A model generated the notes under the pieces. It did not search any database, was not told the DNA's origin, and worked only from the letters and a program-made list of their open reading frames with translations. The position numbers and the translations under genes are program-made. This document shows, piece after piece, positions 7,850-12,275 of a DNA stretch of 64,000 nucleotides; the stretch's first letter is position 1, and each line of letters starts with the position of its first letter. The stretch lies in NCBI GenBank assembly GCA_036227345.1, contig CP109468.1:3534001-3598000 (forward strand). Reading direction: 5' to 3'. The DNA comes from Streptomyces sp. NBC_01463. GTDB taxonomy: Bacteria; Actinomycetota; Actinomycetes; Streptomycetales; Streptomycetaceae.

Positions 7850-9436
7850 TCACTCCCACTCGATGGTCCCCGGCGGCTTGCTCGTGATGTCGAGCACCAC
7901 GCGGTTGACGTCGGCGACCTCGTTGGTGATGCGGGTGGAGATCTTGGCGAGCGTCTCGTACGGCAGTCGCGACCAGTCCGCCGTCATGGCGTCCTCGGAG
8001 GAGACGGGGCGCAGCACGATCGGGTGGCCGTAGGTGCGGCCGTCGCCCTGGACGCCGACGCTGCGGACGTCCGCCAGGAGGACCACCGGGCACTGCCAGA
8101 TGTCACGGTCCAGGCCGGCCGCGGTCAGCTCCTCGCGGGCGATCGCGTCGGCGTCCCGGAGCAGGTCGAGCCGCTCCTCGGTGACCTCGCCGACGATCCG
8201 GATACCGAGTCCGGGGCCGGGGAAGGGCTGGCGCTGGACGATCTCCTCGGGCAGGCCGAGCTCCTGGCCGACCATCCGGACCTCGTCCTTGAACAGCTGG
8301 CGCAGCGGCTCGACGAGCTGGAACTCGATGTCGTCGGGGAGCCCGCCCACGTTGTGGTGGGACTTGATGTTGGCGGTGCCGGTGCCGCCGCCGGACTCGA
8401 CGACGTCCGGGTAGAGGGTGCCCTGCACGAGGAAGGCGACCTCGGGGCCGTCCTCCTGGAGGATCTCCAGCTGCGCCTGCTCGAAGACGCGGATGAACTC
8501 GCGGCCGATGATCTTGCGCTTGGTCTCCGGGTCGGAGACCCCGGCCAGCGCCTTCAGGAAGCGCTCGCTCGCGTCGACGACCTTCAGGTTGGCGCCGGTG
8601 GCGGCCACGAAGTCCTTCTCGACCTGCTCGGTCTCGCCCTTGCGCATCAGGCCGTGGTCGACGTAGACGCAGGTGAGCTGGGAGCCGATGGCCTTCTGGA
8701 CGAGGGCCGCGGCGACGGCGGAGTCGACGCCGCCGGAGAGACCGCAGATGGCGCGCTTGTCGCCGACCTGGGCGCGGATCGCGGCGACCTGCTCCTCGAC
8801 GACGTTGGTCGTCGTCCAGGTCGGCTCGATGCCCGCGCCGCGGTACAGGAAGTGCTCCAGGACCTGCTGGCCGTGCGTGGAGTGCAGCACCTCGGGGTGG
8901 TACTGGACGCCGTAGAGCTTCTTCTCGTCGTTCTCGAAGGCGGCGACCGGGACGACGTCCGTGGACGCGGTGACGGTGAAGCCCTCGGGGGCGGCGGAGC
9001 AGGCGTCGCCGTGCGACATCCACACCGACTGCTGGTCCGGCGTGCCCTCGAAGAGCGTCGAGCCGGACTTGGAGACGGAGAGCGCGGTACGGCCGTACTC
9101 ACGGGCACCGTTGTCGTCGACGGTGCCGCCGAGCGTGGTCGCCATCAGCTGGAAGCCGTAGCACATGCCGAAGACGGGGACCCCGGCCTCGAACAGCGCC
9201 CGGTCGAGCGAGGGCGCGCCCTCGGCGTACACGGAGGACGGTCCGCCGGACAGGATGATCGCCCGGGGGTTCTTGGCCAGCATCTCGGCCACCGGCATCG
9301 TGGACGGCACGATCTCGCTGTAGACCCGGGCCTCACGGACCCGTCGGGCGATGAGCTGGGCGTACTGGGCGCCGAAGTCGACAACGAGGACCACGTCGGT
9401 GGTGGTGTCGGGGGCGGCGGGGGGTGCTGCTGGCAC
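7850..9436 (-). CDS. guaA: GMP synthase (glutamine-hydrolysing)
   Basis: A 528-residue enzyme converting XMP to GMP with glutamine and ATP. The N-terminal class I amidotransferase domain has [19 protein letters not shown], the catalytic Cys in [11 protein letters not shown], and the His/Glu of the triad in [11 protein letters not shown]. The ATP-pyrophosphatase domain has the P-loop [14 protein letters not shown], and the C-terminal dimerisation domain has [14 protein letters not shown] and ends KPPGTIEWE. The GTG at 9436 is preceded by GGAAGG and gives the usual length; the upstream in-frame extension to 10156 is not conserved-looking and crosses the chorismate mutase leader. Confidence 0.97.
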
Positions 9437-9561
9437 GGGGCGGCCTTCCGGCGGTGGAGAGGGGGTCGGTCCTCCCGATTCTACCGGCGGCCCGGGGCGC
9501 CCCTCGTCGCACCGATACGCACCGCCCGCGGCCACCGCCGTCTCACCATCCGGGCCCGCCT

Positions 9562-9591
9562 TTGGCCCGGGCCCGGGGCCGGGTCCATACT
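9562..9591 (+). promoter_or_regulatory. Promoter for chorismate mutase leader transcript
   Basis: TTGGCC (9562-9567), an 18-base spacer and CATACT (9586-9591). The start codon of the leader ORF begins 8 bases after the -10 element, which places the expected transcription start on or next to its A, so the leader message would be leaderless. Read from sequence; start site not measured. Confidence 0.55.
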
Positions 9592-9598
9592 GTCCCCC

Positions 9599-9670
9599 AT
9601 GCGTCAGCACACGACCTTCGTCTTTACCTATGGCACCCGGCCCGCCGGCTGCCATGGTCGTGCTGCTTGA
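9599..9670 (+). CDS. Putative aromatic-residue leader peptide of chorismate mutase
   Basis: A 23-codon ORF with no Shine-Dalgarno sequence, starting about where transcription should begin from the promoter at 9562-9591. Residues 7, 9 and 11 are Phe, Phe and Tyr, the end products of the pathway that chorismate mutase opens. The ORF is followed after 24 bases by a perfect 11-base-pair hairpin and then by the chorismate mutase gene. This is the layout of amino-acid attenuation, as known for trp leaders in Streptomyces. Only three aromatic codons are present, so the call is an inference. Confidence 0.45.
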
Positions 9671-9694
9671 GCAACTGACAAGCAACGTTCCAGG

Positions 9695-9720
9695 CGCCCC
9701 GGGCCGACAGGCCCGGGGCG
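9695..9720 (+). terminator. Attenuator-like hairpin before chorismate mutase
   Basis: CGCCCCGGGCC pairs perfectly with GGCCCGGGGCG around a GACA loop. It lies between the leader ORF and the chorismate mutase gene and is followed by TTCTGG rather than a long T-tract. Either it ends the leader transcript conditionally, or it is a simple upstream terminator. Confidence 0.6.
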
Positions 9721-9781
9721 TTCTGGCGTTCCGGGCCCGGTCGGCCGGGGGCAGCCGCACCCCACCACCGGGAGACCCGCC

Positions 9782-10084
9782 ATGAGCAGCACCACAGCCG
9801 CCCGCACCGCCACCGAGGTGACCGGTGCGCACACCGACGAGGCCGCGTCCCTGATCGCGGACGCACGGACGCGCATCGACTCGCTCGACGACCGGATCAT
9901 CGGGCTCGTCCAGGAACGGATGGCCGTCTCCACCGTCATCCAGGAGGCCCGGATCACGTCCGGCGGCCGCCGGGTCAGCCTCTCCCGCGAGATGGAGGTG
10001 CTCGGCCAGTACCGGGACGCGCTGGGCAGGCCCGGCACCTCTCTCGCGATGACCCTGCTGGAGCTGTGCCGCGGCCGCGTGTGA
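9782..10084 (+). CDS. Chorismate mutase (AroQ class)
   Basis: A 100-residue all-helical enzyme converting chorismate to prephenate for Phe and Tyr synthesis. The helix-1 pattern [24 protein letters not shown] matches the AroQ consensus with its active-site Arg, and later helices carry [14 protein letters not shown] and LLELCRGRV. There is no signal peptide, so it is the cytoplasmic form. A leader peptide and hairpin precede it; it diverges from guaA. Confidence 0.92.
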
Positions 10085-10345
10085 CCCGCCGCAGCTCAGG
10101 CGCCCCTTGGGCCGGCAGGGCTGTACGGGCGTATCCCAGTTCGGGCGGACTCTCACCCGTACGGCGCGTGACCGGTCCGGGCGCGGCTTCGTTGGTCCCG
10201 GTGTCCGTGCCAGCCAGGGGCGGCTTGGGAAACAGAACCACGCGTGGCTCCGCCGGGGCGTGTGGCGTACTGCATGTACGCCGTGGGACCGCGCACCGGC
10301 GTGCGTGACCGGTCGGCAGGGGACAGCAGCCCGGTCACCTCAGAA
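10085..10345. other. Structured non-coding interval downstream of chorismate mutase
   Basis: No convincing ORF on either strand. It contains small inverted repeats: GTACGGG at 10123-10129 with CCCGTAC at 10156-10162, and GGCGTAC/GTACGCC at 10264-10282 around a 5-base loop. It ends against two consecutive strong hairpins. This could be a long 3' untranslated region or an unannotated small RNA. I found no match to tRNA, tmRNA, 6S or a known riboswitch consensus. Confidence 0.35.
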
Positions 10346-10379
10346 ACGGCAGGCTTCAGGGACGCCTGGAGCCTGCCGT
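10346..10379 (+). terminator. First hairpin after chorismate mutase
   Basis: ACGGCAGGCT pairs with AGCCTGCCGT, then one T-G position and an inner CAGG/CCTG stem with a GACG loop. It probably terminates rightward transcription from chorismate mutase or from a small RNA in the preceding interval. Confidence 0.65.
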
Positions 10380-10382
10380 GTC

Positions 10383-10422
10383 CAAGGGCCCGTGGACCGG
10401 ACAACCGGTCCACGGGCCCTTG
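10383..10422. terminator. Bidirectional terminator between convergent genes
   Basis: A perfect 18-base-pair stem (arms 10383-10400 and 10405-10422) with an ACAA loop, 13 bases beyond the stop of the leftward LAXTG gene. A's precede and T's follow, as expected for an intrinsic terminator working in both directions. Confidence 0.88.
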
Positions 10423-10434
10423 CGCGTTCCCCGC

Positions 10435-12141
10435 CTACCGGACGGTGCGCCGCCCGGTCACGTACAGCACCCCGCCCGCCAGCAGGGCGGCCGCCGCGGC
10501 GCCTGCGGCCGTGAGCGCGTCGGTGCCGGTCGCGGCGAGACTGCCGACGGTCCGCGGCCCCGGGCCGGCCGGTCCGGTCGAACCGGACGACGCGGAACCG
10601 CCGGTGGCGGACGAGCCCCCGGTGGACCCGGACGTGGTGGGGCCCGTGTCCCCCGAGCCCCCGGTGGACCCGGCGCCGCCCGACGTGCCGGAGGTGTCCG
10701 CGTTCAGGACGAGGGCGGCTGTGTCGTTCCTCCGGTCCGGGTCGAACGGCAGCGGCGGGTCTCCCGCGCCCCGCACCTCGACCCTCCCGGAGGCCCCCGT
10801 GACGGCCTCGACGATCCGCAGGTCGAAGTGCAGCCCGAGGCCGCCGTCCTCCCGGACGGCCGCCGGGGCCGTGCACCGGTAGCGCGGGGCGCCCGCCTGC
10901 TGCTCGCGGGACCGCCCGTCGGCCGTCACACCCCGGCAGGCGTCCGGCCACCCTGTGACCGAGGCACCGCGGGGGACGGTGAAGTCGACCGTGGCGGCGG
11001 GCTCGCCCGCATCGAGGCCGCCGATCCAGGCGGGCCCCTCGTTGCGGAAGCCGATGTCGGCCTCGACGGTGCTGCCCACCATGCCGTCCGCGGTGTCGCC
11101 GTACGCGACGAAGTCGGCGGTGTTCGCGGTGCTGAAGGCGTTCTCCTGCTGGTTGTCGCCGGGGTCGAGATCGGCGGAGCGGGCGGCGGGGAGTTCGGTG
11201 AGCGCGAGCACGTTCCCCTTGCTGCCCGGTGCGGATCGCGCGCCGGAGCGTTCGGCGGCGCGCACGCCAGGACCGCCCTCGTCGACGCGGTAGACGAAGG
11301 TGTCCCGGTAGGCGCGCCGGGTGGCCCTGAGGGTCAGCGGTTCGGCGAGTTCGTAGGCGGCGCCCGCCTCGAAGCTGCCCTCGACCGAGCAAAGTGCCGT
11401 TGTCCGGACGGTGAAGCCCAGGCCGCCGTCGTCCTCGCTGTACACGCAGTTCTCGTACCGCTCGGTGAACTCGATGCCGCGCGTGTAGACGAGCGTGAGC
11501 AGGACGCCGTCGGCGGCGCGGGTTCCGTCGTTGCTGAACGCCAGCGGGACCGGCTGGGTCTGGCCGGGGACGAGCTCCCGCTTCAGCTCGGCCCGCCTCA
11601 TCACCAGGTCGGGGCCGCCGATCCCGATCCGCGTGGTGAACGGGGCGAAGGTCACGCCGTCCGCCGTGCCGGTGACCCTGACGGTCCCGGAGTCCCCCTC
11701 CTCGCTGCCCTCCGCGGCGGTGAAGCGGAGCTCGGGCAGCGGGTTCGGCCCGGGTGCGAGGCCCTCGCCGTGGCACACGCCGGTGGTACCGGTGACCGTG
11801 CAGTCCGTACCGCCGTCCGCACGGCCGTCCGTGCCGAACCCGGCGTCGGCGACGCCCGCGATGCCGCCGAGGTCGAAGGTCACCGTGTACGCGCCGGTGA
11901 AGCCGCCGTGCTCCTCGTCCCGCAGCGGGTTGTCGACGGTGATCGCGAGGGAGGTCCCCTGCGGTGCGCCGGTCGCCGGGTACGGGTGCAGGGCGGTCTC
12001 GGCGGGGCCGCCGAAGCCCATGACGGGACCGGAGGCACGGGCCGGGGCGCCCAGGGCGAGCGATCCGGCGGCCAGCAGGCCGACGGCGGCGAGAGCGCCC
12101 GCGACACGGCGCGCGGCGGCTCTCGGGGTCGTGCTTCTCAT
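10435..12141 (-). CDS. LAXTG (sortase E type) cell-wall anchored surface protein
   Basis: A 568-residue exported protein. It has a signal peptide at residues 1-36 (RRVAGALAAVGLLAAGSLALGAPARA), a long extracellular beta-rich region, and a Gly/Ser/Thr-rich linker. The C-terminal sorting signal is LAATG at about residues 535-539 followed by a hydrophobic helix and the basic tail GRRTVR. LAXTG is the class E sortase motif of Streptomyces, used for long chaplins and other surface proteins. The ectodomain alternates CARDB-like segments (about 150 residues each, with paired Cys) but I do not recognise a named family. ATG 12141 starts the signal peptide; the upstream in-frame extension lacks one. Confidence 0.85.
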   Translation of the reverse strand: MRSTTPRAAARRVAGALAAVGLLAAGSLALGAPARASGPVMGFGGPAETALHPYPATGAPQGTSLAITVDNPLRDEEHGGFTGAYTVTFDLGGIAGVADAGFGTDGRADGGTDCTVTGTTGVCHGEGLAPGPNPLPELRFTAAEGSEEGDSGTVRVTGTADGVTFAPFTTRIGIGGPDLVMRRAELKRELVPGQTQPVPLAFSNDGTRAADGVLLTLVYTRGIEFTERYENCVYSEDDGGLGFTVRTTALCSVEGSFEAGAAYELAEPLTLRATRRAYRDTFVYRVDEGGPGVRAAERSGARSAPGSKGNVLALTELPAARSADLDPGDNQQENAFSTANTADFVAYGDTADGMVGSTVEADIGFRNEGPAWIGGLDAGEPAATVDFTVPRGASVTGWPDACRGVTADGRSREQQAGAPRYRCTAPAAVREDGGLGLHFDLRIVEAVTGASGRVEVRGAGDPPLPFDPDRRNDTAALVLNADTSGTSGGAGSTGGSGDTGPTTSGSTGGSSATGGSASSGSTGPAGPGPRTVGSLAATGTDALTAAGAAAAALLAGGVLYVTGRRTVR

Positions 12142-12275
12142 CGCGGGGCCTTCTGGGGTCGGGAGCTGTACGGCTGCGGCGCAGCGATACGAGTTCGACC
12201 CCGGGACCGCGGGAACAGTTGCGCGGACCCAGGTCACGGATTGAGCACGTCACCCGGGGAGCACCGCGCACGGAC

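Follow-up and report, generated by a model that had tools for sequence, protein, structure and literature searches.

A putative leaderless Phe/Tyr attenuator upstream of the chorismate mutase gene in Streptomyces

Layout of the chorismate mutase locus

The window analysed here, a 64,000-nucleotide stretch of a Streptomyces genome of 9.07 Mb, carries a stand-alone chorismate mutase (CM) gene preceded by a short ORF and a GC-rich hairpin. Chorismate mutase leads to the aromatic amino acids Phe and Tyr. The features are listed below by position in the window. The name of the divergent gene is one that we presume from its sequence, and its start codon was chosen by eye.

7850-9436, reverse strand: divergent ORF, presumably guaA (GMP synthase)
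9562-9567, forward strand: -35-like element TTGGCC, read from sequence
9586-9591, forward strand: -10 element CATACT, 18 nt after the -35-like element and 7 nt before the ATG
9599-9670, forward strand: putatively leaderless leader ORF of 23 codons, ATG at 9599, stop codon at 9668
9617-9619, forward strand: Phe7 codon TTC (TTC 95, TCC 5 and TAC 3 of 103 distinct loci)
9623-9625, forward strand: Phe9 codon TTT, a nearly invariant rare codon
9629-9631, forward strand: Tyr11 codon TAT, a nearly invariant rare codon
9630-9655, forward strand: predicted protector hairpin P1 (strands 1:2), AUGGCA/UGCCAU with inner CCGG/CCGG
9641-9703, forward strand: predicted antiterminator (strands 2:3), a long imperfect hairpin capturing the terminator 5' arm
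9693-9722, forward strand: terminator-like hairpin (strands 3:4), GGCGCCCCGGGCC gaca GGCCCGGGGCGTT
9770-9774, forward strand: Shine-Dalgarno-like GGGAG of CM, read from sequence
9782-10084, forward strand: stand-alone CM, AroQ type, 100 aa (Pfam CM_2; NCBIfam NF005894 and TIGR01808)

A sequence-only reading of this stretch had picked out a promoter-like pair ending 7 bases before an ATG that has no ribosome site, and a 23-codon ORF with Phe at codons 7 and 9 and Tyr at codon 11. Both were confirmed (TTGGCC/CATACT with the ATG at 9599, and the ORF at 9599-9670), and an ATG 7 nt after the -10 element leaves no space for a Shine-Dalgarno site. Its placing of a chorismate mutase after the hairpin was also correct (CM_2/NF005894 at 9782-10084). 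The hairpin had been described as having 11 base pairs; these form the core, but the full stem has 13 pairs (arms 9693-9705 and 9710-9722) and is extendable downwards. It was ruled out as a terminator of guaA because that gene is divergent.

Simple sigma-70 and terminator scans left the locus unflagged; the -10 element of the leader belongs to the looser Streptomyces type, and the hairpin has a poor U-tract. No NCBIfam or Pfam family is matched by the leader peptides. Folding of the 137-nt leader RNA gives z = -4.86 against dinucleotide shuffles, none of the 200 being as good. An RNA this highly structured could be a ligand- or tRNA-binding element, a T-box or riboswitch in which the ORF is incidental, but Rfam gave only four matches in window positions 9000-10500, all far under gathering scores, and nothing beyond chance on six diverse loci. 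A T-box or other Rfam RNA was rejected on this absence of a covariance-model match. Moreover, the start codon, the spacing to the -10 and the frame are kept among relatives, which an aptamer would not need, and we regard this reading as extremely improbable.

Conservation of the leader with the gene

Relatives were collected as 111 loci picked solely by closeness of the CM protein, comprising a set of 30 best, a set of 80 best and the window's own; nearly all of the best 80 CM loci in the named collection carry the name Streptomyces. The leader core is present in every one of the 111, as [FY].F.YG in 106 and with TTC changed to TCC at codon 7 in five. The check proposed earlier, alignment across Streptomyces, thus bore out conservation of the frame, the Phe/Tyr codons and the hairpin, except that Phe7 can be lost (TCC in 5/103). 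In a wider set of 243 CM loci, in which certain genomes are represented repeatedly, 237 have upstream of CM a 10-40-codon ORF containing the core F-x-[Y/H/F]-G. Three of the six exceptions are at contig ends (L238, L247 and L251, with 239, 1 and 80 nt upstream), and the others (L248-L250) are second, distant CM copies in three genomes.

The leaderless start proposed for the window is supported by the -10 element of the relatives. Among 103 distinct loci the hexamer is CATACT in 96, TACACT in six and GATACT in one (L064), and, where the distance was measured, 5-7 nt separate it from the start codon; TTGGCC-like hexamers were seen by eye, uncounted, upstream of CATACT in many relatives. The start codon is ATG in 175 and GTG in 15 of 190 distinct leaders. 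All 190 have an A and a T in -10-like positions 5-7 nt ahead of the start, under a loose two-base rule and with a choice of start that favoured such placing. From start to core the leader has 5 to 13 codons in 140 distinct ORFs, found by a rule that required the frame. The ORF, its codons and the promoter spacing are established features of these sequences, and conservation of frame and codons suggests that the leader is translated.

A covariance model (R1) was built from 81 sequences. It matches 291/295 genus genomes at E<=1e-3 and, counted by eye, 286 at E<=1e-10. At the looser cut-off R1 also catches generic GC-rich hairpins, and as not every one of the 291 was inspected singly, 291/295 is an upper figure. 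Matches confined to model positions ~90-125, or occurring on both strands, were rejected as such generic hairpins (e.g. L178/L188 in G152). Between the two cut-offs, G121, G186 and G120 are real, G152 has the generic hairpin, and G073 matches at model positions 64-125 only, beside a contig end.

Six of the 295 genomes have no CM match. Three of these (G103, G272 and G276) have no R1 match either, in two the contig stops just past the hairpin (G114) or within the CM gene (G139), and G152 has only its generic hairpin. CM without an R1 match occurs in a single genus genome, G008, where the gene lies at a contig end. R1 matches 186/197 genomes in the order sample. Among those without a match, three have no CM match (G319, G343 and G309), one has its CM at a contig end (G363), and in seven a leader was found by reading (G295, G296, G298, G299, G305, G307 and G308), so R1 is too narrow there. 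This co-occurrence across genus and order genomes indicates that leader and gene go together. G103, G272, G319 and G343, which belong to the same genus and are 99-100% complete, have no match to this CM and no leader.

Conservation is concentrated between the core and the hairpin. Over 400 random pairs drawn from 197 loci, the mean pairwise identity of the 60 nt upstream of the start is 0.63. It rises to 0.74 between the start and the core Phe and to 0.87 between the core and the stop codon, then falls to 0.80 as far as the end of the hairpin and to 0.61 in the 60 nt past it. The core Phe codon is TTT in 185/190 distinct leaders and the core Tyr codon is TAT in 186/190, compared with TTT in 0/13 Phe codons and TAT in 1/221 Tyr codons of the matched CM stretches at the same loci. 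Phe codons ahead of the core are TTC in 180 cases and TTT in one. Fixation of TAT is explained in part by its pairing in P1, while in the fold predicted for the window's RNA the core TTT has no pairing partner; our guess is that slow decoding of wobble codons lies behind the fixation of TTT. Only two aromatic residues occur in 11/190 leaders, and Trp accounts for 12 of the aromatic codons ahead of the core. Four loci of the same genus as the window (L236, L237, L240 and L256, genomes of 4.8-6.6 Mb) have a Trp codon before the core (FWFTYG), and Trp may be sensed too in that group.

The expectation that the ORF would be conserved held for its core, but the 3' half is kept mainly as RNA and not as peptide. 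These features bear on whether the leader might be a functional micropeptide, with a hairpin that merely terminates its own transcript or stabilises the mRNA. As such a peptide would suggest, 87 leaders of the 23-residue class show strong conservation of the core FTYG and of the tail CHGRAA. However, residues 2-6 vary, the synonymous sites of the core are nearly fixed, and the tail follows the RNA pairing. A one-base insertion after Tyr in L064 gives a different peptide tail with the stop position unchanged, and distant relatives have unrelated tails (GSPGRHGDAV, HRIVPAGLVVVR and GPGSLAIVGC). To judge from these alignments, it is the RNA rather than the peptide that is kept in the ORF's last third, and a micropeptide function appears very unlikely.

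Alternative helices and the proposed switch

The regulatory codons lie before or in strand 1, the 1:2, 2:3 and 3:4 helices are all present, and the amino acids encoded match the downstream gene, CM. The sequence-only reading proposed attenuation without this logic of competing structures; the logic is present, with covariation, and supports the proposal. We consider it likely, from sequence and predicted structures, that the locus works by ribosome-mediated transcription attenuation on a leaderless leader peptide, in the manner of trpL and pheL. Leader and competing hairpins very probably turn on CM when Phe or Tyr is short.

The mechanism would run as follows. Transcription would start at, or within ~1 base of, the leader ATG, the putative start site, so that the ribosome would load on the 5' end with no 5'UTR. 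When charged tRNA-Phe or tRNA-Tyr is scarce, the ribosome would stall at Phe7, Phe9 or Tyr11 and cover the 5' strand of P1, leaving strand 2 (CCCGCCGGCUGCCAUGG...GCUUG) free. Strand 2 could then pair with a stretch that ends in the terminator 5' arm, the terminator would be forestalled and CM would be transcribed. When both Phe and Tyr are plentiful, the ribosome would reach the stop codon at 9668 and mask the upper part of the antiterminator, and transcription would be stopped ahead of CM by the GC-rich hairpin at 9693-9722. The choice would be kinetic, as the antiterminator must form before the terminator 3' arm is made. Without a stalled ribosome, the helix expected to compete for strand 2 would be P1, a role that the folds support in part only. 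The starvation response and termination in vivo are putative elements of this scheme, as is a dominant role for either amino acid.

Folding was computed for the unoccupied RNA that exists before the terminator 3' arm has been synthesised, with the ribosome at set A-site positions. With the A site at Tyr, what can still form is the long imperfect hairpin in which the terminator 5' arm is captured. Mean capture over 51 diverse sequences was 0.85 one or two codons before Tyr and 0.72 at Tyr; beyond it, capture was 0.51 two codons on, 0.39 at three, 0.15-0.31 from the fourth and 0.12 with the ribosome at the stop codon. This profile puts the aromatic codons at the edge of the zone in which stalling would antiterminate. 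Capture without a ribosome was 0.44 (sd 0.28), and the best fold in that state was the antiterminator rather than P1 in 3/5 printed examples. A control with shuffled linkers still gave capture of 0.58 against 0.72 for the real sequences (mean energy z -1.52, 36/51 below -1), so that, in sequence this rich in GC, folding by itself carries moderate weight as evidence. When the full-length RNA is folded at equilibrium, the terminator forms in every ribosome state with probability 0.95-0.96, and the model therefore requires kinetic trapping of the kind known from classical attenuators.

Covariation is the stronger evidence in these alignments. At one position shared by strands 2, 3 and 4, 175 of 202 loci could be parsed, of which 169 read C-G-C/T and five T-A-T (L030, L062 and the distant L244-L246); a lone T-G-C case, L240, was discarded as a mis-parse whose actual reading is TGCCG. 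In alignment A1, which holds 81 of 95 distinct transcripts, the T-A-T change preserves pairing in all three helices: G-U in P1, U-A in the antiterminator and A-U in the terminator.

The antiterminator structure was taken from L001 and then counted on A1 and on a second alignment, A2, of 42 of the 51 diverse segments (without L172, L175, L176, L181, L182, L260, L261, L264 and L272), from which the most distant families are missing. In A1, 93.9% of cells are paired, compared with 36-51% (maximum 51.2%) when the structure is slid along the alignment, and in A2 77.4% compared with 37-48% (maximum 47.6%). No shuffle of 500 reached the antiterminator's covariation score or its number of doubly changed cells (31 on A2). 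Other counts discriminated less: pairs changed on both sides were equalled on A2 by 26/500 shuffles and further pair types by 109/500, pair types were equalled on A1 by 63/500, and one slide on A1 exceeds the antiterminator in doubly changed cells (11 vs 5). RNAalifold on A2 recovers only seven pairs, at the base of the antiterminator, one of them compensatory. In the apical helix, L021 replaces C-G by U-A, distant clades have the whole helix replaced, and our own rule failed to detect it in 31/197 loci. Alternative helices and covariation are thereby established at the level of sequence.

The hairpin itself has at least 12 pairs in 197/202 loci by our own rule. The U-tract is weak, with no more than three T in the 12 nt past the hairpin in 102/202, and actinobacterial leaders that have no clear terminators have been published (PMC8079986, PMC1262725). 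The leader could be a cis element for CM translation or mRNA stability, whose hairpin is no terminator in vivo. The interval between the leader's stop codon and the matched CM stretch varies from 83 to 357 nt, and with the hairpin well before the CM ribosome site this makes sequestration unlikely; sequestration of the Shine-Dalgarno site was rejected on these grounds. The terminator arm is moreover the partner of a covarying antiterminator, and we judge an element for translation or stability unlikely.

Related leaders and known systems

CM leaders occur in other genera and families of the order, for example MFCAAVNFSYGTGSPGRHGDAV, MSSRARRFSYGHRIVPAGLVVVR, MLANRRFFYGYGPGSLAIVGC, MRQAAFRFSYGFRNRSGSPVAVWP and VLRSRRFGYGFPAGPVGQAVAR, in which the ends differ and F-x-Y-G is the same. 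At class level R1 matches 68/246 genomes, many by the hairpin alone, and 14 of them are in family f19. Eighteen class-level regions were taken; the 13 of f19 were inspected, and L218, L219, L221, L222 and L223 were checked for CM only. In all 13 f19 loci (L206-L217 and L220), TATAGT or TATATT is followed by an apparently leaderless ORF such as MQRNFWRFYGYRPVPRTVACKALR, a GC-rich hairpin and, after it, an ORF starting MVIVM. One 49-residue f19 N-terminus matches the ferredoxin-like domain of DAHP synthase, the enzyme that opens the pathway to all three aromatic amino acids, and the codons of the leader upstream of it in f19 include Phe, Trp, Phe and Tyr.

A second model, R2, was built from these 13 loci. 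An aromatic leader is present in 30/30 of its best loci (L286-L315, from genomes partly shared with the 13), and an MVI(V/I)M start is visible downstream in 28 of them. R2 matches the Streptomyces CM leaders at the same places, with E-values of 2.8e-11 at best (G013) and 4.0e-5 in the window's own genome. It matches 163/394 class genomes at E<=1e-3, generic hairpins included, as with R1. The codon before Tyr is TTT in 12 and TGG in four of 16 distinct f19 leaders, and Tyr is TAT in 15 and TAC in one.

From these matches the CM leader and the f19 DAHP synthase leader are likely to be of common descent. Their likeness may also be due to convergence, as a shared GC-rich hairpin lifts the scores and the E-values are rough. 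More tentatively, there may be one ancient family of leaderless aromatic attenuators across Actinobacteria, moved between CM in Streptomycetales (Phe/Tyr) and DAHP synthase in another family (Phe/Trp/Tyr), with the near-invariant UUU-x-UAU as a timing device at which stalling decides between antiterminator and terminator; we hold this possible and rather doubtful. The two DAHP_synth_2 and two PDT genes of the window's own genome have no comparable leader, the best candidates being two ORFs with two aromatic residues each.

The closest known systems are pheL of Escherichia coli and aroR of Corynebacterium glutamicum. E. coli pheL has a 5'UTR and many Phe codons, whereas the CM leader is putatively leaderless with two Phe codons and one Tyr codon; the gene served by pheL, pheA, encodes a CM-prephenate dehydratase fusion, whereas CM stands alone here. 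What the two share is a leader with Phe codons before an enzyme with chorismate mutase activity, as pheL is described in PMC11802643. The same source describes the AroR peptide as containing Phe-Tyr-Phe, with stalling under Phe limitation raising aroF transcription, for which it cites Neshat 2014, and Tyr limitation having no effect (PMC11802643). By that description aroR resembles the CM leader as an actinobacterial leader peptide with Phe and Tyr codons, and differs in preceding aroF (DAHP synthase) and in the ineffectiveness of Tyr (PMC11802643).

Among other actinobacterial leaders, trpL1, leuL, ilvL and further leaders of S. lividans are similarly short ORFs with regulatory codons and hairpins, mostly leaderless, in the account given in PMC8079986. 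That re-annotation lists eight leader peptides, none of them Phe/Tyr, and the word 'chorismate' is absent from its main text (PMC8079986). The mycobacterial polycysteine ORFs are likewise leaderless and sense an amino acid; unlike the CM leader they sense cysteine, and the 2005 actinobacterial survey saw no conserved terminator hairpins at them (PMC1262725). That survey treats Trp, Cys, Leu and Ile elements and states that it saw none conserved in structure for other pathways, and it mentions that mutated ilvB and leuA leaders of S. coelicolor did not behave as classical attenuators (PMC1262725).

The sequence-only reading had known of no described Phe/Tyr leader for a stand-alone actinobacterial chorismate mutase. 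Our literature searches, with most subscription papers outside their scope, gave no paper on a CM leader among the matches listed, and this part of the claim stands. The C. glutamicum precedent, as described in PMC11802643, means that Phe/Tyr attenuation as such is not new to actinobacteria. As far as the literature searched shows, no Phe/Tyr attenuator has been described before on a stand-alone actinobacterial CM, and the proposed switch would be the first. Since CM stands at the branch feeding Phe, Tyr and many aromatic antibiotic precursors, the leader could provide a handle for strain work. The predicted tie between ribosome loading and the first transcribed bases would make the start of a ribosome on nascent leaderless RNA directly testable.

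Two features downstream of CM complete the neighbourhood. A strong hairpin at 10383-10422 lies between the convergent ends of CM and the next gene, and is probably a shared terminator. On the reverse strand, at 10435-12237, there is a 600-aa ORF whose end combines an LAATG-type motif with a hydrophobic stretch and with basic residues, an arrangement which, going by the motif, we take to resemble the ends of sortase-anchored surface proteins.
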